Origin: an uncultured Sphingomonas sp.
GTDB lineage: Bacteria > Pseudomonadota > Alphaproteobacteria > Sphingomonadales > Sphingomonadaceae
NCBI RefSeq assembly: GCF_913778135.1
Contig: NZ_CAJYVU010000103.1
Coordinates: 1 to 64,000, forward strand
Length of the DNA: 64,000 bases
Reading direction: 5' to 3'
Part shown: piece by piece, positions 9,624-58,859 of the stretch
Layout of the letters: each line of letters begins with the position of its first letter
How positions within the stretch are numbered: position 1 is the first letter of the stretch
The notes under the pieces: generated by a model
Databases searched by the model: none
What the model saw: the letters and a program-made list of their open reading frames with translations, nothing else
What the model was told of the DNA's origin: nothing
Program-made: the position numbers and the translations under genes

Positions 9624-10511
9624 CGCTTAAATGGCCTCCATGCCGTCAGTCGGTGTGCGACCATTTGAACGCCGGCATCCTGCGAAACCACCCGTATCCT
9701 GCCGACAACCGGCGGTGCGGTCTTTTCTAGGAGGGCGACGCCTCCATCGTTGGTTACAGTCGCAGCAAGCACCTGAAGCGCCGCATCGGATCGCTCGGAG
9801 CTTCCCGCAAAGACACCGAACGCCGGGTGGTATCGCCGAACCTCGCCAGCGCCGAGCGCGAACGCGGCATAACCTCCCGTAAGGGCGGATCACGCTGGCC
9901 AGTCTCGCGGATGAGGTGTCTCCATGCTGGTGCCGCTAGCTCAGTCACCAAGGAGCCGTGGACATTAGTCGGGCCATCCCAAGCGACGAGCGACGCCAGG
10001 ATGCGTCGTACGGAGACCGCTTGATCAGATGATAGAACCGGCTTGGAATGGTTGGGGGAAGTGAAGCTATGTTGAAATCCGCGTTTATCAGAGTGGCCGT
10101 CGGTCTTGACGGACGCACCATAGCCGAGCGCAACGCGGTCGCGGTCTGCGTCAGCGGCCCCGCCACTTCGCTCAAACGATCCGGCGTTTTCGGCCGCGAC
10201 CGCCTGCTGAGTGAACGGCGACTCTCTGCGTCACGGCGCTCCGAACCGGACGTGCGGCATCGACCCAAAACGCTTCTGCGCAAAGCGCCATTCGGCCGCC
10301 GGCGCCGCAGCGAACCAACTGATCGGCGCTCGGCGAGTCCGGATGGATGGCGTCAGGGATCGGCGCGCGGCGCGAAATGGCCTTCAACTCGGCGCACGCC
10401 GTGCCCGTCCCGCCTCACCTACGGCAAGCGCCCCGTCCCCGCGCGGCGCTTGCCAGGTGCTTGCCAGCCTCGGAACGGCCCTTCGAAGCCCTCCGATAAC
10501 CTGTTGAAAAA
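9624..10511. other. 888-bp stretch without a confident gene; degraded acetyltransferase-like reading
   Basis: No ORF here has a good start, a ribosome site and a recognisable product. The best trace is on the minus strand at about 9630-9888. There an open stretch reads 'GGYAAFALGAGEVRRYHPAF' and ends 'GVQMVAHRLTAW', which has the feel of a GNAT acetyltransferase C-terminal half. It lacks a start and carries an upstream in-frame stop, so it would be a remnant. The part next to the tRNA (10050-10511) holds only high-GC shadow ORFs and is where an attachment site is expected. Confidence 0.3.
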
Positions 10512-43273: not shown

Positions 43274-44335
43274 ATGACACAGCCTGTCAGCGACATTTGG
43301 CGGCTTAGTGAAGCGCAAGAAGAATTTGATCGGCGTATAGTCGATCTGAACTCCTCGGGCAGAGAAGTAAGACCACGCTCCGTAGCTAGGCATGCACAAA
43401 GGGTTGCTCGAAAGCTTGGAAGGTCGACTGCTTCTTCACTTCTTAAAACCGCCCCTGACATGCTTAAGCTGCGGCAGAAGCAAGATATAGAATATAAACA
43501 ACGAAATTTTCAGCGCTGGCGCAAAGCATTCGAACTGATCGATACCCTATGGGTCGCTTGCGAGGAAACCGGTCGGAAATTCAATGAGTACATGCGTCCG
43601 CAGGCCGTCGATGATCGCGATCATGTATTTGAAGCATTGACGTATCTAAATTCTAAAGTTCTTCTCGTTTCTGCTGAGATGATTTGCCTGATGAAAGGTG
43701 GCTTCGCTGACGGTGCGCTAGCGCGCTGGCGGACGATCTACGAGTTAAACGTGATCGCGGCGCTCTTAGCTCAAGAAGGTGAGATGCTTGCAAGACGGTA
43801 TCTCGCGCACTCACGAGTTCAGGCCTGGGAAAGGATGAAGCTTGCCGGTGACACTAATGACCTCAACCTTCGAGATCTGAAAATCAAGAATGACGCTGAA
43901 GCGGCACTCGCCGTTTTTGGCGAAGATATGACCCATTTTTACGGGTGGGCTCGCGAGATCACACAAAGCAAAAGACCGAATTTCGCCTCCATCGAAGCGT
44001 TAGTAGAGCATGAGCACGGGCGTCCGCTCTACAAAGCAGCCTCACAACACATTCATAGCAATCACCGTATGCCAGATGAGCTGTTGGGTATGTCAGAGGC
44101 GGTTGCGGAGGGCTTACTTGTTGGACCTAGCAACTCTGGTATGGTGACACCTCTCAGGCTCTGTGCTCATAGCCTCGTGCAATCTGCGTCCACGTTGATG
44201 TTTAGATACCCCAACATCGATAGATCGGCGATTGTCCTAGCGTTTGTGCGTCTTGCAAGGAAAATGGATCGTCTAGCGATGAGGATCGAACGACGAACAT
44301 TGAGTACGGCCGGCAAAGCCACTGGATTGTCTTAA
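43274..44335 (+). CDS. DUF5677-like protein, lysogenic cargo gene
   Basis: The 353-aa protein is almost entirely helical. Its centre ('GGFADGALARWRTIYELNVI', 'LARRYLAHSRVQAWERMKL', 'FASIEALVEHEHGRPLYK' then 'ASQHIHSNHRM') follows the DUF5677 pattern with conserved Arg, His and Tyr. The family is of unknown function and is common on mobile elements. Base composition is clearly lower in G+C than the flanking genes and rare codons (TTA, AGA) are used, so it was probably acquired separately. It is the last rightward gene, 10 bp from the convergent tail gene D. Expression in the lysogen fits a superinfection-defence cargo, which is inference. Confidence 0.65.
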   Translation: MTQPVSDIWRLSEAQEEFDRRIVDLNSSGREVRPRSVARHAQRVARKLGRSTASSLLKTAPDMLKLRQKQDIEYKQRNFQRWRKAFELIDTLWVACEETGRKFNEYMRPQAVDDRDHVFEALTYLNSKVLLVSAEMICLMKGGFADGALARWRTIYELNVIAALLAQEGEMLARRYLAHSRVQAWERMKLAGDTNDLNLRDLKIKNDAEAALAVFGEDMTHFYGWAREITQSKRPNFASIEALVEHEHGRPLYKAASQHIHSNHRMPDELLGMSEAVAEGLLVGPSNSGMVTPLRLCAHSLVQSASTLMFRYPNIDRSAIVLAFVRLARKMDRLAMRIERRTLSTAGKATGLS

Positions 44336-50426: not shown

Positions 50427-50792
50427 TCAGGAAAGCGCGCTGAGCGCGCGGATGGGGACGGAGAGGTCGAGCGGGGCGGCGCCGGCGGGGGCATCGGTGC
50501 GGAAGCCGGTCAGGCGCAGGACGAAGGCGCCTGGTGCGGCACCGCGCTCGAGCGCGACACGGCGCAGCGACACGCGACCTTCCTGCCGCATGATCGCCTG
50601 CGCGGTCGCGGCGTAGACCAGCAGCACGGTGCGCGGGTTCATCGGCTGGTCGAGTAGCTCGGGCAGGTCGGAGCCATACTCGCGGCGCGCGATGCGGTGC
50701 CCGAGCGGGGTCGAGAGGATGTCGCCGATCGATTGCGCGAGGTGGTCGGCGCCGGCGAGCGGCTTGCCAGTGTGGCGGTCCATCCCGTTCAC
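50427..50792 (-). CDS. W: Baseplate wedge protein gpW (gp25 family)
   Basis: The 121-aa protein shows the GPW/gp25 pattern 'LAQSIGDILSTPLGHRIARR', 'EYGSDLPELLDQPMNPRTVL' and 'AIMRQEGRVSLRRVALERGA'. It is a baseplate wedge subunit with a lysozyme-like fold that nucleates sheath assembly. Its ATG overlaps the gpV stop (ATGA). Confidence 0.9.
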   Translation of the reverse strand: MNGMDRHTGKPLAGADHLAQSIGDILSTPLGHRIARREYGSDLPELLDQPMNPRTVLLVYAATAQAIMRQEGRVSLRRVALERGAAPGAFVLRLTGFRTDAPAGAAPLDLSVPIRALSALS

Positions 50793-51322
50793 TGCGGCTT
50801 CCCCGACACGCCTTGCCCCGGCTGGACGGCGAGGTGGACGTGATCGCGCAGGCTCTTTCCCGCGCCAACCACGTCGCCGGTCGCCTCGACGGTGCCGGTG
50901 ACGTGGAGATTGCCCCGCAGGTAGATGTCGTCGGCTTCTACCTGGACGAAGGAACCGGCGGGCAGGCGCGCGATCAGGAAGTGCCCGTCGGGATCGTAGG
51001 TGATCTCGGCGCCGTCATCGAACGCGATCACCGCGCTGCTATCATCGGCCGGGTGCGGGTGCTGGTCCGACGAAAGGCTGCCGATGATGATCGCGGCGCT
51101 GGTGCGACCCTCGGGCGAGATCACGACCACTTGCTCGCCGACCGAGGGTGCGGCGTAGATTCGCATCTTGCCGGCGCGCGCCGCCAGCCAGGGAATGTCG
51201 CCGGTGACGAGGTCGCCGAAGCGCACCCGCGCGGTGCCGGCGCGGAGATCCACCGATTCCACCACGCCCTCGCGCGCGAGATCGCCCAGGAGGCGCAGGG
51301 TGTCGGCACCGATGTTCATCAC
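50789..51322 (-). CDS. V: Baseplate spike protein gpV
   Basis: The 177-aa protein matches P2 gpV. The OB-fold is 'GVVESVDLRAGTARVRFGDL', 'IPWLAARAGKMRIYAAPSVG' and 'EQVVVISPEGRTSAAIIIGS'. The C-terminal beta-helix repeats ('DDIYLRGNLHVTGTVEATGD') form the membrane-piercing needle, and a late His ('SLRDHVHLAVQPG') may help hold the apical metal. It is the first gene after a 24-bp dyad that may be a late-promoter element. Confidence 0.9.
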   Translation of the reverse strand: MMNIGADTLRLLGDLAREGVVESVDLRAGTARVRFGDLVTGDIPWLAARAGKMRIYAAPSVGEQVVVISPEGRTSAAIIIGSLSSDQHPHPADDSSAVIAFDDGAEITYDPDGHFLIARLPAGSFVQVEADDIYLRGNLHVTGTVEATGDVVGAGKSLRDHVHLAVQPGQGVSGKPQ

Positions 51323-51389: not shown

Positions 51390-51632
51390 TCAGGACGAGG
51401 CGAGCGGCGCCTGTGCGTCCTGCCACGCGTCGCTCGCGCGCTGTGCCTGCACGGCGATGTCGCTCGCGAGATCCGCGCGCGCGCCGGCCGGCAGCGAGAT
51501 GCCGCAGCGATACAGCCCCTTGCGCCACGGCAGGACGAGGATGGCGCAGCCCTCGGCGACGAAGCCGGTGAGTGCGTCGGCGATGGCGAGGCAGCAATCC
51601 TCGTGCGCGGTGAAGACCAGGCGGTCGGTCAT
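51390..51632 (-). CDS. Hypothetical 80-aa phage protein
   Basis: ATG 51632 lies 7 bp after the fibre stop and gives 'MTDRLVFTAHEDCCLAIADA' plus a short beta/alpha body ending 'QAQRASDAWQDAQAPLASS'. The ORF track start at 51677 overlaps the fibre gene. It lies directly behind the fibre gene, where tail-fibre assembly chaperones are usually found, so a chaperone for the fibre is a reasonable but untested guess. Confidence 0.55.
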   Translation of the reverse strand: MTDRLVFTAHEDCCLAIADALTGFVAEGCAILVLPWRKGLYRCGISLPAGARADLASDIAVQAQRASDAWQDAQAPLASS

Positions 51633-51639
51633 GACTTCC

Positions 51640-54069
51640 TCACAGCCAGCCCAGCACCTGGGCGATGTTGATGACATTGGCGGTCCAGCCGTAATCGGGT
51701 GCGCCCTTGCCCTGGCCGCGCATGCTGAAGCGCTCCCACAGGCGCCCGGTCGCGACGAACTCGCGGTAGACGCGGTCGATCACCTGCCGCCCGATCAGCT
51801 CGGCCTCGGCGCGCATGCCGTAGCGCAGCAGCCCGAGGATGGTCAGGAACTCGAGGTTCACCCAGTGGTCGCCCTTCCAATAGTCGCTGGTGGCAGGCGA
51901 GTTTCCGCCGTCGTGCACGTCGCTGTCGACCTCGGTTGCGCGTGCATCGTCGGTCAGGCGGGGCTGCGCGATGAGGCCGAGGCCGGTCGCGTAGACGAAG
52001 CCGCGCACGTGGAAGGTGAGCGTCACCGATGAGGTGGCGAGGTCGGCGGTGGCGTTGCTGCGCTGTAGCAGGCGCGCGTAGAAGGGCCGCGCCGATGTGG
52101 TCAGCGGGTCGAGCGTGGTGGTGACGAACGCGCCGTCCACGCCCGCCGGCATCGGCAGCTCGGTGTTCACGACGAAGGCGTTGGCGGGATAGTCGCCGAG
52201 CAGGAGCTGATAGCCCTGCGACGCCGCGGCGCGGGGATGGCGAACGTCGATGCTGAGCGGGCGGTAGCGCTGTGCGGTTTCCCACTCGGGCACGATGGCG
52301 GCGAGCGGGCGTACGGGATCGGACGCCATGCCGCGCGCGTAGATCGTCAGCACGGTGCGGTCGCCGCTGGTGTAATCGTGACGCCAGCCGCGCGCGGTGA
52401 TCGTGGTCGCACCCGACGCGTCGGGTGCATGCCAGAAGAGGTGACGCGCCTTCAGCCGCGAGGTGCGACCGCTGCCGAGCCGGCCGTAGTCGGTGCCGAG
52501 ATAGGCGGTGAATTTGTCGGGCACGTCGCCGTCGAAGCGGTAGAGCAGGTTTTCGTCTACCATGCGGCGTGCCTGCGCCTGGGTGACCGAGCCGGCGAAC
52601 AGCGGAAAGGCGAAGTGGGTGAGCTTGTGGCACCATTGCAGCCCGCGGTGGAAGACGCTGGTGCCGGCCGCGAAGGCGGTGTCGATGCCGCGCATGAAGC
52701 GGAGCACCGTCTCGGTACCGACCAGGTCGGCCGCGAGCTGCACCGTGGTGTCGCCGAGCACGAGCTTGTCGCCGGCGATGGCGGCGAAGCCGATCGGCTC
52801 GGCGAGCGTCAGCGAGGTAGCACCGAGCGCGACCGGCGCCGCGAGCGTGCCGACGCTGCGCGCGAGGTCGGATCGCACGATCATCGCCAGCCTGCCGTAT
52901 TGATCATCCCACAGGTAGCGGGCGATGCGACCGTTGATGCCGTCGCGGGTGCCCGCCCAGGCGTCGCGCTGGTCGGCGAGGCCGAGCGCGTCGGCGAGCT
53001 TCGCCATATAGCCGGCCTCGCTGGCGAGTGCTGCATTCAGCTCGGGGCAGACGTGGTCGGCAAGCATGCCGTCGACGCCGGCAAACTGCGCATCGAAGAA
53101 GCCGATGTTGGCATCCTCGCCGGTCTCGTAGCGCAGATCCTGCGCGACCAGGCCGGGGCTGGGCGAGCCGGGGCGGCTCGAGCCGTAGAGGAACAGCCCG
53201 GAGGCATCCATGCGCGCGGCCTTCCACCAGGCGAACTCGCGGACGAGGTAATCGTACATGGTTCGGGCGAAGACGAGGTCGCCGGTGGCGTTGAAGCACT
53301 CCCACGTCGCCCAGGCGCGCACCGGCACCTGGCTGTAGTTGGTGTTGAGCCCGGGCCCGATCGTGCACGGCGTCATGCCATTGTCGAGCTGCGCGGCCGG
53401 CAAGTTGAGCAGCCAGCGCTGCGCCTCTTCGGCGCGGCCGAGCGCCACCGCGGCAACCGCCTCGAACGGCGTGTCCCACGCCCATTGCCCGGTCTCGGTA
53501 TAGCCGTCGCCCGGTCCGATGCGATCGTAGGGCGTGAAGCGGTCGGCCGGGCGCACGTTGACGGTGAGCACGCGGTCGGCTTCGCGGCGCAGCCGCTCGA
53601 GCGCCTGTGACAGGATAGGGTCGGACAGCACGCGACCATCCGGCAGCACCAGCGCATCGCGCACGGTCCTGCCCGGCGACAGGCCGATGAGGTCGGCACC
53701 CTTCGCCGGATCGGCGAGGTCGGCCGCGCCGATCATGACGCCGGCGAAGCTGAGCGCACCACCCGCCGCGCGGTAGAGCGTGCGCGCACCGTCGCGGCTC
53801 TCATCGGCGAGGATCATGACGGCGCCGTCGTCTGGCTGCGCGGCAACGGCGTCCGCCTTCGTCGCGTAGACGCGCCCGGCGGTGATCGCGAGGTCGGCCG
53901 CGACCTGCGACACATCGGCCGATGCCGCGGCGCGGGTCAGCTCGTCGCCGAGTGCTGCTGCAACGAGTGGGCGCATCGACACGCGCGCGGCGCGCTCGCC
54001 GCTCATCACCACCACGGTTTCGGTGCCGGTCGGCTGGGCAACCTCGGGAAGCGCGGAGATCTTGGGCAT
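51640..54069 (-). CDS. Tail fibre/spike with GH63/GH37-like (alpha/alpha)6 glycosidase domain
   Basis: The 809-aa protein sits at the fibre (G) position. Residues 1-165 are a tail-connector-like region ('MPKISALPEVAQPTGTETVV'). From about 165 the sequence follows six-hairpin glycosidases: 'QWAWDTPFEAVAAVALGRAE' (196-214), a helical repeat with 'NTNYSQVPVRAWATWECF', then 'YWKGDHWVNLEFLTILGLLR' (730-749) and 'GAPDYGWTANVINIAQ' (789-804). These are landmarks of the GH63/GH37 families. A ~70-residue beta module with the common phage-fibre pattern 'VALGATSLTLAEPIGFAAIA' is inserted at about 405-475. It probably cleaves host exopolysaccharide. The catalytic acids cannot be assigned by eye. Confidence 0.75.
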   Translation of the reverse strand: MPKISALPEVAQPTGTETVVVMSGERAARVSMRPLVAAALGDELTRAAASADVSQVAADLAITAGRVYATKADAVAAQPDDGAVMILADESRDGARTLYRAAGGALSFAGVMIGAADLADPAKGADLIGLSPGRTVRDALVLPDGRVLSDPILSQALERLRREADRVLTVNVRPADRFTPYDRIGPGDGYTETGQWAWDTPFEAVAAVALGRAEEAQRWLLNLPAAQLDNGMTPCTIGPGLNTNYSQVPVRAWATWECFNATGDLVFARTMYDYLVREFAWWKAARMDASGLFLYGSSRPGSPSPGLVAQDLRYETGEDANIGFFDAQFAGVDGMLADHVCPELNAALASEAGYMAKLADALGLADQRDAWAGTRDGINGRIARYLWDDQYGRLAMIVRSDLARSVGTLAAPVALGATSLTLAEPIGFAAIAGDKLVLGDTTVQLAADLVGTETVLRFMRGIDTAFAAGTSVFHRGLQWCHKLTHFAFPLFAGSVTQAQARRMVDENLLYRFDGDVPDKFTAYLGTDYGRLGSGRTSRLKARHLFWHAPDASGATTITARGWRHDYTSGDRTVLTIYARGMASDPVRPLAAIVPEWETAQRYRPLSIDVRHPRAAASQGYQLLLGDYPANAFVVNTELPMPAGVDGAFVTTTLDPLTTSARPFYARLLQRSNATADLATSSVTLTFHVRGFVYATGLGLIAQPRLTDDARATEVDSDVHDGGNSPATSDYWKGDHWVNLEFLTILGLLRYGMRAEAELIGRQVIDRVYREFVATGRLWERFSMRGQGKGAPDYGWTANVINIAQVLGWL

Positions 54070-54070
54070 G

Positions 54071-55093
54071 TCAGCGGCCTTTCGAGTGCCAGTAGAAGGT
54101 GACCGGCGCTGCCTCGGTGTTCGTGACGGAGAAGCCGATGAAGGGCGGGCCGATCAGCTCGCGGATGAAGACCTTGGCAGGCGCCGCGCCAGCGAAGATC
54201 GGCTGCCCGACCGGCACGAGGTATTCGTCCGACCCGAGCGGCAGTTCGATGCCGACCGTTGCGCCGGCCGGGATCTCGGCAACGCCCCAGCATTCCTTCA
54301 CCCCGTCCGACCACAGCCGGTAGCGACCCTCGGGCGCCTCAACGGAATCAACGATGCGCAGGAATTCCTCATTGCCGAGCTGGTTGATACGCTCGAGCAC
54401 CGATGCGGCAGTGTAGCCCTCGGCGGTGACGAAGAAGTCGTTGTTCTGCGTCGCGGCGGTGCCGAGTTCGAGCTGGCCGCGCCCCTCGGCCGGCGTTGCC
54501 ATAGCAATCAGCCCGCGTGCCCAATCAGTCGGGCCGGTGCCGAGCCGGGCATTCAGCGCCGCGCGGATCGCCGCCCACATCGCGGCGACCGGCGCGATGC
54601 GGCGCGCGTCGGTGCCCGCGACCGCCTCGGCCTCGGTTGCCAGCTCGACCACGCCGGGGGTGTCGGTGGTCGCGGGCGGGTTGAGGAAGTCGGTGTCGCC
54701 GAAGATCAGGTTGGCGACGCTGCCGGTCGGGAAGGCGATGTCGAGTGCCAGGTGCAGCGTAGTCGCGACCGCCTTCTCGGCGATGCGCTCGGCCTGCCCG
54801 TAGAGCGCGAACAGCGTGCCGTCAGCGAGGAACAGCCCGAGCCCGCGCACGCCGTAGCCGACCGCGGCTTCGTCGCGCACGACCATGTGCACGATGCCGT
54901 CGCCGACCGGCTTGCCCGAGATCGTCTCGATGCGGCGAAAGGCACCGGGCAGCGCGTCGAGCGTCGGCGCGGCGATGAAGGCGGTGTCGGTCAGCTGTAC
55001 GTGCGTGACCGCGAGGTCGATGTCGTCGCCGAGCTGCGCGGCGGTGAAGCGGGCGAGCCCGGCGTTGGTGACGAGCAGCGGTAGCGCGCTCAT
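54071..55093 (-). CDS. H: Tail fibre/collar protein gpH (N-terminal DUF3751 type)
   Basis: The 340-aa protein begins 'MSALPLLVTNAGLARFTAAQ' and continues 'VTHVQLTDTAFI' and 'GVRGLGLFLADGTLFALYGQ', the usual P2 gpH-like fibre N-terminus that attaches to the baseplate. A fibre stalk ('PPATTDTPGVVELATEAEAV') and a beta-rich distal domain follow. It is much shorter than P2 gpH. Its start overlaps the gpI stop, and 1 bp separates it from the glycosidase fibre gene, so the two probably form the fibre together. Confidence 0.8.
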   Translation of the reverse strand: MSALPLLVTNAGLARFTAAQLGDDIDLAVTHVQLTDTAFIAAPTLDALPGAFRRIETISGKPVGDGIVHMVVRDEAAVGYGVRGLGLFLADGTLFALYGQAERIAEKAVATTLHLALDIAFPTGSVANLIFGDTDFLNPPATTDTPGVVELATEAEAVAGTDARRIAPVAAMWAAIRAALNARLGTGPTDWARGLIAMATPAEGRGQLELGTAATQNNDFFVTAEGYTAASVLERINQLGNEEFLRIVDSVEAPEGRYRLWSDGVKECWGVAEIPAGATVGIELPLGSDEYLVPVGQPIFAGAAPAKVFIRELIGPPFIGFSVTNTEAAPVTFYWHSKGR

Positions 55094-55740
55094 GCGGCGA
55101 TCTCCAGAAAGGCGCCGCGATCGTCGGTGATCGGCTCGCCGTCCTGCGTCTGCAGGAACGACGACCAGTCACGATTGCGGTCGATGGTGTAGGTGGTGTC
55201 GAGGCGGGCGGCGACCGCGGTACGCAGCGCGCCCTGCACGCCGATCAGCCCCGCGATCTCGATCAGCTGGACGAGCCGCATCTGCTCGCGCAGCGGCTTG
55301 GTGCGCGCAACCTCGCGGATGATCGCCTCGGCAAAGGCGGCGGTTGCGCGCCGTCCGCCGGGTGCGGTGCCATCTTCGAGCACCATCGGCAGCTCGACCT
55401 CGAAGGTGTGCGGCGCGGCGCGCGGCGAGGCTTCGTGCCACTCGATCACGCGGGCGAGGCGGTCGAAGCGCGCGAGCACGGTCTCGACCGACAGGCGCGT
55501 GCCCTTGATGCGGTGGAAGGCGATGGAGCCGGCGACCGCGGCGCGCTTGTCGGCTTCCGACCAGTCGGTGTCCCAGGTGTCGACCGACAGCCCCCAGGCG
55601 AGCCACGGCAGCAGCTCGGACGGGCAGGCGAGCGGATCATCGATGACGCTGGCGGGCGTGTCGATGTCGATCGCGCGCACGCCGCGCTCGAGCGCGCGTT
55701 CGAGCCACGTCGAATTGGGCGGCAGCAGGCTAGTCGTCAT
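55090..55740 (-). CDS. I: Baseplate protein gpI
   Basis: The protein opens 'MTTSLLPPNSTWLERALERG' and has 'LPWLAWGLSVDTWDTDWSEA', 'HRIKGTRLSVETVLARF' and 'LREQMRLVQLIEIAGLIG', matching P2 gpI, a baseplate component that connects the fibres. ATG 55740 overlaps the J gene as in P2; the ORF track start 55749 adds three residues. It is about 216 aa, slightly longer than P2 gpI. Confidence 0.88.
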   Translation of the reverse strand: MTTSLLPPNSTWLERALERGVRAIDIDTPASVIDDPLACPSELLPWLAWGLSVDTWDTDWSEADKRAAVAGSIAFHRIKGTRLSVETVLARFDRLARVIEWHEASPRAAPHTFEVELPMVLEDGTAPGGRRATAAFAEAIIREVARTKPLREQMRLVQLIEIAGLIGVQGALRTAVAARLDTTYTIDRNRDWSSFLQTQDGEPITDDRGAFLEIAA

Positions 55741-56587
55741 AGCCGGCATGGGTCACGGTGACGCCGGTGCAGAGCGCCGCCTGCGTGGCGTCGCAGATGA
55801 TGCTGGCGAGCGGCGCTGCCAGCTCGACACGCTGTACGCCCTCGACGGTGAGCGCAGCGTAGAGGCCGGAGAGCGTGATGTCGCGACCGAGGCGGCGCGA
55901 GGCGGCGATGTACGCATCGAGCTTCGCGCGCGCGGAGGCGAGCACGAGCGCGGCGTCGGGGCCGGCGAAGGTCCACAGCCGCGCGGTGACGACGAACGGC
56001 ACCAGCGCGGCCGACGCAACCGTGACCAGGTCGCCGAGCGGGCGCACCGACTTGTCGGTGACGATTTTACGCACGGTGCCGAGCAATGCGTTGGACGCGG
56101 TGCCGTCGCCCTCGGCCGAGAGCAGCGTCATAAGCACCTCGCCGGGCGCCGGACTGGTGGCGCTGGCGTCGAGCACGAGGGCGGACGCGTCAAGTGCGCG
56201 CTTCACATACGCCAGCTCAGGACCGGCCGCGGCGAAGCCCTCGGGTGCGAGCACGATACGCGCGCGCAGCGCGTCGTCGCTCTCGCCGGCGAGCCGGGCG
56301 ACACCGATCGCGGCGCCGATGTGATCGAGGGTCGAGCCGGTGGCGTATGCGACGAGCCGCTGCTGCAGTCGGTCGTTGAAGTCGGCGCGCAGCATCATCT
56401 GCTCGTAGGCCGCGATTTGCAGCACCTTGACCGCCGGGTCGCTGTCGACGGTGGCATCGAAGCTCGGCAGCTCGGCCTGCACGCGTGCGATCAGTCGGGC
56501 GAGGATCGTCTCATAGTCGAGCTGCTCCACGATCGGCGGGGGAGCAAGGCGCGACAGGTCGACAGAGCTGGAGGCGGGCGCGGGCAT
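55730..56587 (-). CDS. J: Baseplate wedge protein gpJ
   Basis: The 285-aa protein matches gpJ: 'LDYETILARLIARVQAELPS', 'DPAVKVLQIAAYEQMMLRAD', 'AYATGSTLDHIGAAIGVARL' and 'RARIVLAPEGFAAAGPELAY'. It is the baseplate wedge subunit paralogous to T4 gp6. Here it starts the J-I-H-fibre block, preceded by a 24-bp dyad and by a cargo gene rather than by V and W. Confidence 0.9.
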   Translation of the reverse strand: MPAPASSSVDLSRLAPPPIVEQLDYETILARLIARVQAELPSFDATVDSDPAVKVLQIAAYEQMMLRADFNDRLQQRLVAYATGSTLDHIGAAIGVARLAGESDDALRARIVLAPEGFAAAGPELAYVKRALDASALVLDASATSPAPGEVLMTLLSAEGDGTASNALLGTVRKIVTDKSVRPLGDLVTVASAALVPFVVTARLWTFAGPDAALVLASARAKLDAYIAASRRLGRDITLSGLYAALTVEGVQRVELAAPLASIICDATQAALCTGVTVTHAGYDD

Positions 56588-56873: not shown

Positions 56874-58859
56874 TTAGTGAGCTGGCCTTTCAAGTAAGTC
56901 ACGAAAGGTGCGTTCAAGCTCGACGTGAATCAGAGCTGTCTCGTCAGCCATAACAGTCATGATTATTCTTTGAAGCAGCTTGCCGGCTTGCTGCTTGGTA
57001 ATCGCCTGAAGAAATGGAAAGGCGGTGACAACTAGGCCTTCCAAGGCATGGTCATCCGTGTCGGCCCACCTGGCGTCAATTTCAAGCGACAAGCCTCCAC
57101 GGTAATCCGAGCGTATCTTCGTCAAGGGGGCGCTTACAAAGACACGCAGGCCGACAAGCTCGACCATCTTCTGAAGCTCATTGGCGCTAAACTGCAAAAT
57201 AGCGGGATAGGGAGTGGTTTGAGCCACTCCTACCGACGGTCTTTCAGTGGCGAAATCGCGGCAAATGAGTAGGGCAAGGCTAAGAGGGTCAAGAACATAG
57301 TTCTCGATTCCATTACGGCCACCGGAACCTAAAACTGCTATACGCCCGGTTGCAGCGTGATGACCGTCGTAATCAACAAGCCCGAAAACCGAGTTATTTC
57401 CGGCTGCCGCTAAGTCGTCAACTAGGCGCTTCAGCACGTCACAACCAGTGTTGATCTCATGTCCCTTAGTATTACGTGTCCCCGTGGCAACAAACTCTAG
57501 TGACCTCTCAGAGCGTAATTCCGGCTTGAGAATCTTGTAAAGGCTGTCGTACGTTTTCGCATCCGATGGGCTTTCGACGAATACCTGCCGCCGGCCATCA
57601 AAGCTTATCGCTATCGTTGGTACGCCGACCGTAAGGATGTTCAAGGCCTCGGCTTTAGAGACGGAATGTAAGCCGGGTTTCCCGGGTAGCATGAGGTGCA
57701 CCGCACCCTCAGGTGCCAAGGCGACCGTCGAAGGCGAATGGGTGGTCGCTATCACCTTTATTCCAAATTCTTTGACAAGCGTACTTGTAATCGTGTTGAT
57801 GAGCGAGCGAGTCATCGACGGGTGTAGAGGCGCGTCGATTTCGTCAAAAAGAATTAGTTTGGGATAGACCGTAAGCTGCCTTCGATCGTTCGCATAATAC
57901 ACGCAGAACGCGAAGGACATGAGCACCTTCTCGCCTGACGAGAGGCTAGAAAATGGGATGATCGCTCCTGTGGATATCTTTGTCAGTTGCGGTGTGTAGG
58001 GCAGGAACTCGTTTAAAGCTGGCGCATTAATCACGAAATCTAGGCCCGCCGACGCTATTGTGTCATTAACGAACCTCCACGGCGCTGGGCCATAATGCTC
58101 ATGAAACTCGCTCGGAGCTAAAAATGGCTCTTCCGAGTAACCCTTTTCGAAATTGAACTCCGCAAGGCGGTTGCTTAGTTCAGCATCTCGATATGCAAGA
58201 AATAGCCGCGCAAAAGATTGCTGGAAGAGGTCTGTCCTGCCCCAATTACTGAGGCCGGAGACACTCAATTGCTTGGGAGTAATCGCCACAACCGGAATCT
58301 GATATTTGCTGCTGAGTGCGCGAAGGGATGCTTGCAGAAGCGCATCAGAATTGTTGATGATGAACTGTGATGCATTTGCAATCGCCTGGTTGATCTGAAT
58401 CATCGCAGCTTCTGCTTGCTTGGGGTCGGAGAGCTCGCGCTCCAAATCGCCCATGCTCCATAGAACCATGTTGAAAGGATCATCGATAAACTTGTTAGAA
58501 AGCCCAAGTGATCGAGCCACCCCTCGGAGTGGCTCAGCAGCGTTTGGATGTCGGCGGAGGGTTACAAACTGCATCTCTAAGGTTTGCCGCTCCTGCCGCA
58601 GCGCCTCACTCGAAATCTGACCCTGATCTTGGGGCACGAGAGTGCTCCAATCAAAAAGGCGAATCTCGTGACTTGAACTTTGAGGCTGGGCGACATCGGT
58701 ACGTATTGAGCCGTTCGCCAATGCTTGAAGGAGATGCGTCTTGCCCGCGCCGTTCGGGCCAGTGATCACCGTAAAATCCGGGATTTGAACGGACGGGAAA
58801 GTGTTAATGGACAGGTGGCTGGCGTTGAAGTTGAGCTGCATACTAGTATCAATAAGCAC
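56874..58859 (-). CDS. AAA ATPase with TOPRIM-like C-terminal domain (OLD-like), probable cargo defence gene
   Basis: The 661-aa protein has an ABC/SMC-like ATPase: Walker A 'TGPNGAGKTHLL' (34-41), signature 'LSSGEK' (306-311), Walker B 'LILFDEIDAPLHPS' (337-342) and the H-loop 'ATTHSPS' (373-375). It is followed by a TOPRIM-like segment with 'VFVESPSDAK' (Glu429) and 'GLVDYDGHH' (Asp496/498). This architecture is that of OLD-family or DUF4435-linked nuclease/ATPases, several of which abort infection by other phages. G+C is near 50%, far below its neighbours. The first start is GTG 58859; ATG 58841 is an alternative. It lies between S and the next late gene, the place of cargo orf30 in P2. 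Confidence 0.8.
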   Translation of the reverse strand: MLIDTSMQLNFNASHLSINTFPSVQIPDFTVITGPNGAGKTHLLQALANGSIRTDVAQPQSSSHEIRLFDWSTLVPQDQGQISSEALRQERQTLEMQFVTLRRHPNAAEPLRGVARSLGLSNKFIDDPFNMVLWSMGDLERELSDPKQAEAAMIQINQAIANASQFIINNSDALLQASLRALSSKYQIPVVAITPKQLSVSGLSNWGRTDLFQQSFARLFLAYRDAELSNRLAEFNFEKGYSEEPFLAPSEFHEHYGPAPWRFVNDTIASAGLDFVINAPALNEFLPYTPQLTKISTGAIIPFSSLSSGEKVLMSFAFCVYYANDRRQLTVYPKLILFDEIDAPLHPSMTRSLINTITSTLVKEFGIKVIATTHSPSTVALAPEGAVHLMLPGKPGLHSVSKAEALNILTVGVPTIAISFDGRRQVFVESPSDAKTYDSLYKILKPELRSERSLEFVATGTRNTKGHEINTGCDVLKRLVDDLAAAGNNSVFGLVDYDGHHAATGRIAVLGSGGRNGIENYVLDPLSLALLICRDFATERPSVGVAQTTPYPAILQFSANELQKMVELVGLRVFVSAPLTKIRSDYRGGLSLEIDARWADTDDHALEGLVVTAFPFLQAITKQQAGKLLQRIIMTVMADETALIHVELERTFRDLLERPAH

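Follow-up and report, generated by a model that had tools for sequence, protein, structure and literature searches.

A P2-like prophage of an uncultured Sphingomonas sp. carries in its tail operon an 809-aa tail fibre or spike protein (P0001; 51640..54069, minus strand) with a GH63/GH37-like glycosidase body. All positions refer to the window, the whole 64,000-nucleotide stretch of DNA that was analysed, unless another contig is named. We estimate at about three in four the probability that P0001 is a tailspike of the prophage virion, acting as an inverting GH63/GH37-type glycosidase that cleaves a surface glycan of the host at adsorption. This kind of enzyme appears to have been known so far from cells, where its relatives digest trehalose and related sugars.

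On the minus strand the tail genes run in the order J, I, gpH-like fibre, P0001, a gene for 80 aa, a gpV-like gene, sheath, tape measure, a U-like gene and D. On their other side are the head and packaging genes (S, L, small terminase, gpO scaffold, large terminase, portal). Baseplate gpJ (Baseplate_J) is encoded at 55730..56587, baseplate gpI (Tail_P2_I) at 55090..55749, the gpH-like tail fibre at 54071..55093 and the gpV-like baseplate spike at 50789..51322, all on the minus strand. An 809-aa gene at the P2 fibre position had been recognised in the sequence-only reading, and the open reading frame indeed stands right after J, I and the gpH-like fibre. It is intact and uninterrupted inside an 81-kb contig, and its GC content by codon position (0.70/0.52/0.89) fits a real coding frame in GC-rich DNA. 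Elsewhere in the prophage, a gene for a 661-aa AAA_21/AAA_15 ATPase with an AbiEii/OLD-like match (56874-58859, minus strand) is located between gpJ and gpS; it is likely a cargo gene, possibly for anti-phage defence. A DUF5677 gene at the prophage edge (43274-44332, plus strand) adjoins gpD on the opposite strand. To the right of the window, past the portal, a gene at L019:8454-9218 (minus strand) has a weak match, below cut-off, to a HEPN/RES N-terminal domain and is a possible defence gene.

Searches against Pfam assigned residues 194-399 of P0001 to MGH1-like_GH (PF22422, E=3.9e-24), residues 719-803 to the GH63 C-terminal domain (PF03200, E=2e-8) and residues 736-789 to trehalase (PF01204, E=1.6e-5), each above the gathering threshold. 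Neither an S74 chaperone nor a beta-helix was detected by Pfam, and no PHROGs profile matched at E<=1. The motifs first picked out by eye are all present, namely QWAWDTPFEA (D199), SDYWKGDHWVNLEFL (W731-K732-G733) and GAPDYGWTA (W795), and they are not attributable to chance because the Pfam matches exceed curated cut-offs and an independent homologue, 58% identical, matches the same families. The protein can accordingly be divided into a putative N-terminal attachment region (residues 1-165; 53575..54069, minus strand), the first part of the predicted catalytic barrel with WAWD (D199) and YETGED (D319) (residues 165-400; 52870..53577, minus strand) and the C-terminal part of the barrel with YWKG, the putative base E779 and W795 (residues 719-809; 51643..51915, minus strand). 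Homology to cellular enzymes is confined to two separated stretches at ~19-26% identity, and a single-sequence structure prediction returned a pLDDT of 34 and a pTM of 0.23. Judged by Pfam and profile similarity and by the retention of both catalytic acids, the body belongs to the broad group of GH63/GH37-type six-hairpin glycosidases, as originally proposed.

The best PDB and NCBIfam match to P0001 is E. coli YgjK, a GH63 alpha-glycosidase, and the active-site residues were located by comparison with this enzyme. In a direct phmmer alignment with chain 3w7s, E779 (codon 51733..51735, minus strand) faces YgjK residue 727, counted along the alignment. We take E727 to be the general base of YgjK. 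The acid was assigned through an intermediate, L034, a true YgjK orthologue (E=1.7e-204), whose WESGMD aligns with WESGRD of YgjK; the Asp there has number 502 in chain 3d3i and, as this chain begins one residue before 3w7s, the YgjK acid is numbered D501. D319 in YETGED (codon 53113..53115, minus strand) falls opposite the Asp of WESGMD in the multiple alignment and in the profile-profile alignment, the latter matching P0001 to the YgjK orthologues at E=3.3e-15 with a probability of 98.5. Asp501 is the general acid of YgjK, and in both GH63 and GH37, which are inverting families, the acid sits in the A'-region (PMC7263609). The sequence-only reading depended on such an acid/base pair, and D319 and E779 supply it in the sequence and profile alignments.

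Across 20 aligned proteins (P0001, its homologue P0002 and 18 cellular enzymes), D199, E779 and W795 are identical in 20/20 and D319 is kept in all but one. Some phage receptor-binding proteins bind without cutting, and K732 of P0001 stands where YgjK-like enzymes have Arg, as might be expected of a catalytically dead barrel that has become a pure glycan binder, a lectin derived from an enzyme. We nevertheless regard this as unlikely, since both catalytic residues and two others from the active-site motifs persist despite ~42% divergence of the two copies, and since the block with the acid (residues 281-320) is the most conserved one (75%).

P0001 and YgjK have in common the motifs WxWD, ESGxD (with the acid) and YW(K/R)G, the base Glu and the terminal W. 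P0001 differs in lacking the N-terminal domain of this cellular enzyme, in having a short A'-region where that of YgjK is long, and in carrying a phage N-terminus and two insertions. It scores 31.5 bits against an NCBIfam cut-off of 625 for the YgjK equivalog, and the YgjK_N domain is absent. GH37 trehalases align with P0001 in the C-terminal motif region, the acid and the base, but the strong match extends over only ~75 C-terminal residues and P0001 has YWKG in place of the trehalase motif, which contains Ala there; the best trehalase stretch in Pfam is 54 residues long, and the TreA equivalog score is 17.6 bits against a cut-off of 941. The strongest Pfam match, MGH1-like_GH (mannosylglycerate hydrolase type), covers profile positions 3-230 of 356 in its best stretch, and the domain in P0001 is broken by the two insertions. 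In a small tree that included YgjK-like and trehalase/MGH-like enzymes, the P0001 and P0002 bodies sat together on a long, separate branch. As the placement is unsupported (0.477), we call the body GH63/GH37-like and assign it to neither family.

Residues 1-312 of the cellular enzyme L034, which include its signal and N-terminal domain, have no counterpart in P0001, where the phage N-terminus is found instead. The stretch from the YG motif to the acid motif is 23 residues long in P0001 (G296-D319) versus 77 in L034 (G465-D542), so that over this stretch the A'-region is ~54 residues shorter than in YgjK orthologues. A beta module had been proposed at residues 405-475; comparison with the YgjK orthologues confirms an insertion there (residues ~408-483; 52621..52848, minus strand) that is without counterpart in them, its beta nature being read from the sequence pattern. 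A second insertion, not noted previously, spans residues ~505-720 (51910..52557, minus strand; ~200 aa net). It gave no PDB or NCBIfam match and is a candidate recognition or trimerisation domain, and either insertion may be beta-rich by the same kind of evidence. Both flank conserved stretches of the catalytic domain (FPLFAG, YWKG), which suggests that they shape substrate recognition.

Comparison with related prophages identified the position of P0001 as a tailspike slot. In a congener (L079) the J-I-fibre order recurs and is followed by a 624-aa protein; the first 163 aa of the L079 fibre are 61% identical to the gpH-like fibre next to P0001, and the 624-aa protein has part of the P0001 N-terminal region (from residue 34 on, 31% identity) together with a weak match to Peptidase_S74 (endosialidase chaperone). 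A member of the same bacterial family (L020) has the J-I-fibre block followed by a beta-helix tailspike, the N-terminal part of which weakly matches P0001 residues 1-130 (38% identity). Since both carry spikes after the same block, P0001 occupies a spike slot in the tail operon, and its N-terminal region is partly common to tailspikes. It thus resembles the beta-helix, S74 and SGNH/GDSL tailspikes of prophages in gene slot and in sharing N-terminal attachment regions, but differs from them in its predicted catalytic fold and chemistry.

A second copy of the body was found in another phage type. P0002 (L018:7351-10236, 962 aa) is encoded on another contig of the same genome, its body is 58% identical to P0001 over P0001 residues 38-807 and it matches the same Pfam families. 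Its N-terminal domain of ~180 aa is unrelated to that of P0001, and a single gene lies between P0002 and a lambda-J-like tail-fibre gene (phrog_5616/phrog_31); distal-tail genes are encoded upstream. This N-terminal domain has strong matches at 17 places in 15 further genomes of the genus, and two phage records of human faecal origin contain it too. The bodies behind it are beta-helix/pectate-lyase-like in L060 and L066, GDSL in L063, L065, L069 and L074, and sialate-esterase-like in L067 and L072, with others lacking an assignment; the assignments for L060, L063, L067 and L074 score below the Pfam curated cut-offs. At the loci L058-L074, an N-terminal fibre domain that is widespread in the prophages of this genus is joined to very diverse bodies, of which about half are without a Pfam match.

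Both N-termini are common to other prophage spikes, and the GH body therefore fills the tailspike enzyme slot in two phage types. The best evidence for a role of the body as a virion spike enzyme is that two unrelated attachment regions, each otherwise found with assorted glycan enzymes, both carry it. The cellular nature of the P0001 relatives might instead point to a non-virion enzyme of the lysogen, serving lysogenic conversion or metabolism (e.g. sugar use or surface change), but this seems very unlikely: P0001 is in line with J, I and the fibre in the tail operon, it has an N-terminus common to tailspikes and not the cellular N-terminal domain, and P0002, which has a phage N-domain, is encoded in a different tail operon. 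The genome is a draft of 203 contigs, which could raise the suspicion of an assembly or annotation artefact joining a host gene to a prophage. We consider this barely credible given the uninterrupted frame within its 81-kb contig, the independent homologue with a different N-terminus and the small gene found behind both copies. A recent exchange between the two prophages was also considered and is unsupported, the bodies being merely 58% identical.

The small gene (51390..51632, minus strand; 80 aa) lies directly downstream of P0001, beginning 7 bases past its stop codon with AGGAAG upstream. A homologue follows right behind P0002 (L018, about 10254-10475, plus strand; phmmer 3.7e-10), and none was found downstream of the other fibres with this N-domain in the stretches examined, some of which are short. 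A single-sequence model of the protein showed a small alpha/beta fold (pLDDT 80), for which Foldseek returned generic alpha/beta matches only, none with E<=0.001. As a guess, it could be a partner specific to P0001 that helps in assembly or acts as an inhibitor.

Most of the known GH63/GH37 enzymes attack small oligosaccharides or the ends of chains, and cleavage within a chain is therefore not implied by the family of P0001. A narrower version of our explanation, with overlapping confidence, is that P0001 is a virion exo-glycosidase which strips LPS or capsule of a terminal or side-chain sugar with no depolymerisation, a receptor modification comparable to that by deacetylating SGNH spikes. 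Characterised relatives act on chain ends or disaccharides, and the sister fibres with the P0002 N-domain carry esterases that modify glycans and do not cut them. Prophage SGNH esterase spikes, including their deacetylation, are documented (PMC13123978). However, the pocket could have been made more open by the two insertions and by the A'-region that is ~54 residues shorter. We put the exo-acting alternative at about one in three.

Our preferred explanation, the glycan-cleaving tailspike, would work as follows. The N-terminal ~165 residues would attach P0001 to the baseplate/fibre complex of the virion. The body would act as an inverting six-hairpin glycosidase in which D319 serves as the general acid and E779 as the base, and at adsorption it would cleave, or trim, a probably alpha-linked glycosidic bond in a presumably polymeric surface glycan of the host, allowing the tail to cross this layer and reach the envelope, as with beta-helix tailspikes. 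Loss of the N-domain, the short A'-region and the two insertions would plausibly fit what was a pocket enzyme for work on a polymer as part of a multimeric spike. Weighing against this explanation are the two separated stretches to which the homology extends and the origin of both known members, P0001 and P0002, in one draft genome. The term depolymerase is a well-supported interpretation of P0001, while the sphingan or capsule suggested as its target is a guess.

INPHARED, IMG/VR and GTDB yielded no comparable virion protein. In INPHARED, tblastn recovered no GH63/GH37-like gene apart from apparent host DNA; degenerate-pattern scans (four of viral contigs, two of genome contigs) gave no relatives, and 1,785 genome searches, a count that includes repeats and covers 295 genomes of the genus, gave no further copy of the full GH body. 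Because pattern scans are insensitive to distant relatives, absence here means not found at that sensitivity. The other genome matches were cellular YgjK- and trehalase-like genes. The matches in two Enterococcus 'phage' records, Efs 1-1-1 and IME_EF3, were rejected as virion homologues because these are unverified contigs that lack annotation, and the Efs 1-1-1 gene, which encodes YgjK_N in full and lies next to NanE, looks like host DNA. The phage records with trehalase matches are bacterial scaffolds or short contigs that carry no annotation, and the matches G200 (TonB receptor), G143 (histidyl-tRNA synthetase-like) and G233 (trehalase) are not fibres. The unannotated 'phage' records OR846600.1, PQ520318.1, OR845302.1 and OR851716.1 appear to be or to contain host bacterial DNA; encoded among them are trehalases and a full-length YgjK that includes YgjK_N and adjoins NanE. 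Since the P0001 and P0002 bodies differ at ~42% of positions, they belong to an old family, of which further members must exist that have not been sampled.

No paper tying GH63 or trehalase-like enzymes to phage tails was found in the literature. According to the excerpted text of the DepoScope study, the phage depolymerases known so far are mostly beta-helices and beta-propellers, and some uncommon folds have never been studied in phages (PMC11326577). The same excerpts count 11 alpha/alpha toroids, the broad fold class predicted for P0001, among 984 fold hits in phage proteins in silico, give neither families nor functions for them, and state that these were excluded from training for scarcity (PMC11326577). 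The earlier proposal of a new class of virion depolymerase thus holds in so far as the collections and papers searched contain no comparable virion protein, but alpha/alpha toroids as such had already been counted in phages in the excerpted DepoScope text. Somewhat short of even odds, we put forward that P0001 and P0002 represent an undescribed virion tailspike family deserving its own CAZy family, in which GH63/GH37-type inverting enzymes were remodelled into polymer-cutting spikes by loss of the N-domain, reduction of the A'-region and addition of two domains, and in which a two-gene cassette with the small partner moves between P2-like and lambda-J-type phages.

If the tailspike explanation is correct, the sugar coat of the host may be opened by a catalytic machine unlike the usual one, and phages are able to take an ordinary sugar hydrolase of cells into service in the virion. 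Detection of depolymerases would be widened to proteins of this kind, for which PHROGs gives no match and DepoScope, by its excerpted text, was trained without toroids. An enzyme for sphingomonad-type surface polysaccharides would also be on offer, and the prophage fibres at L058-L074 are a source of unstudied spike enzymes.
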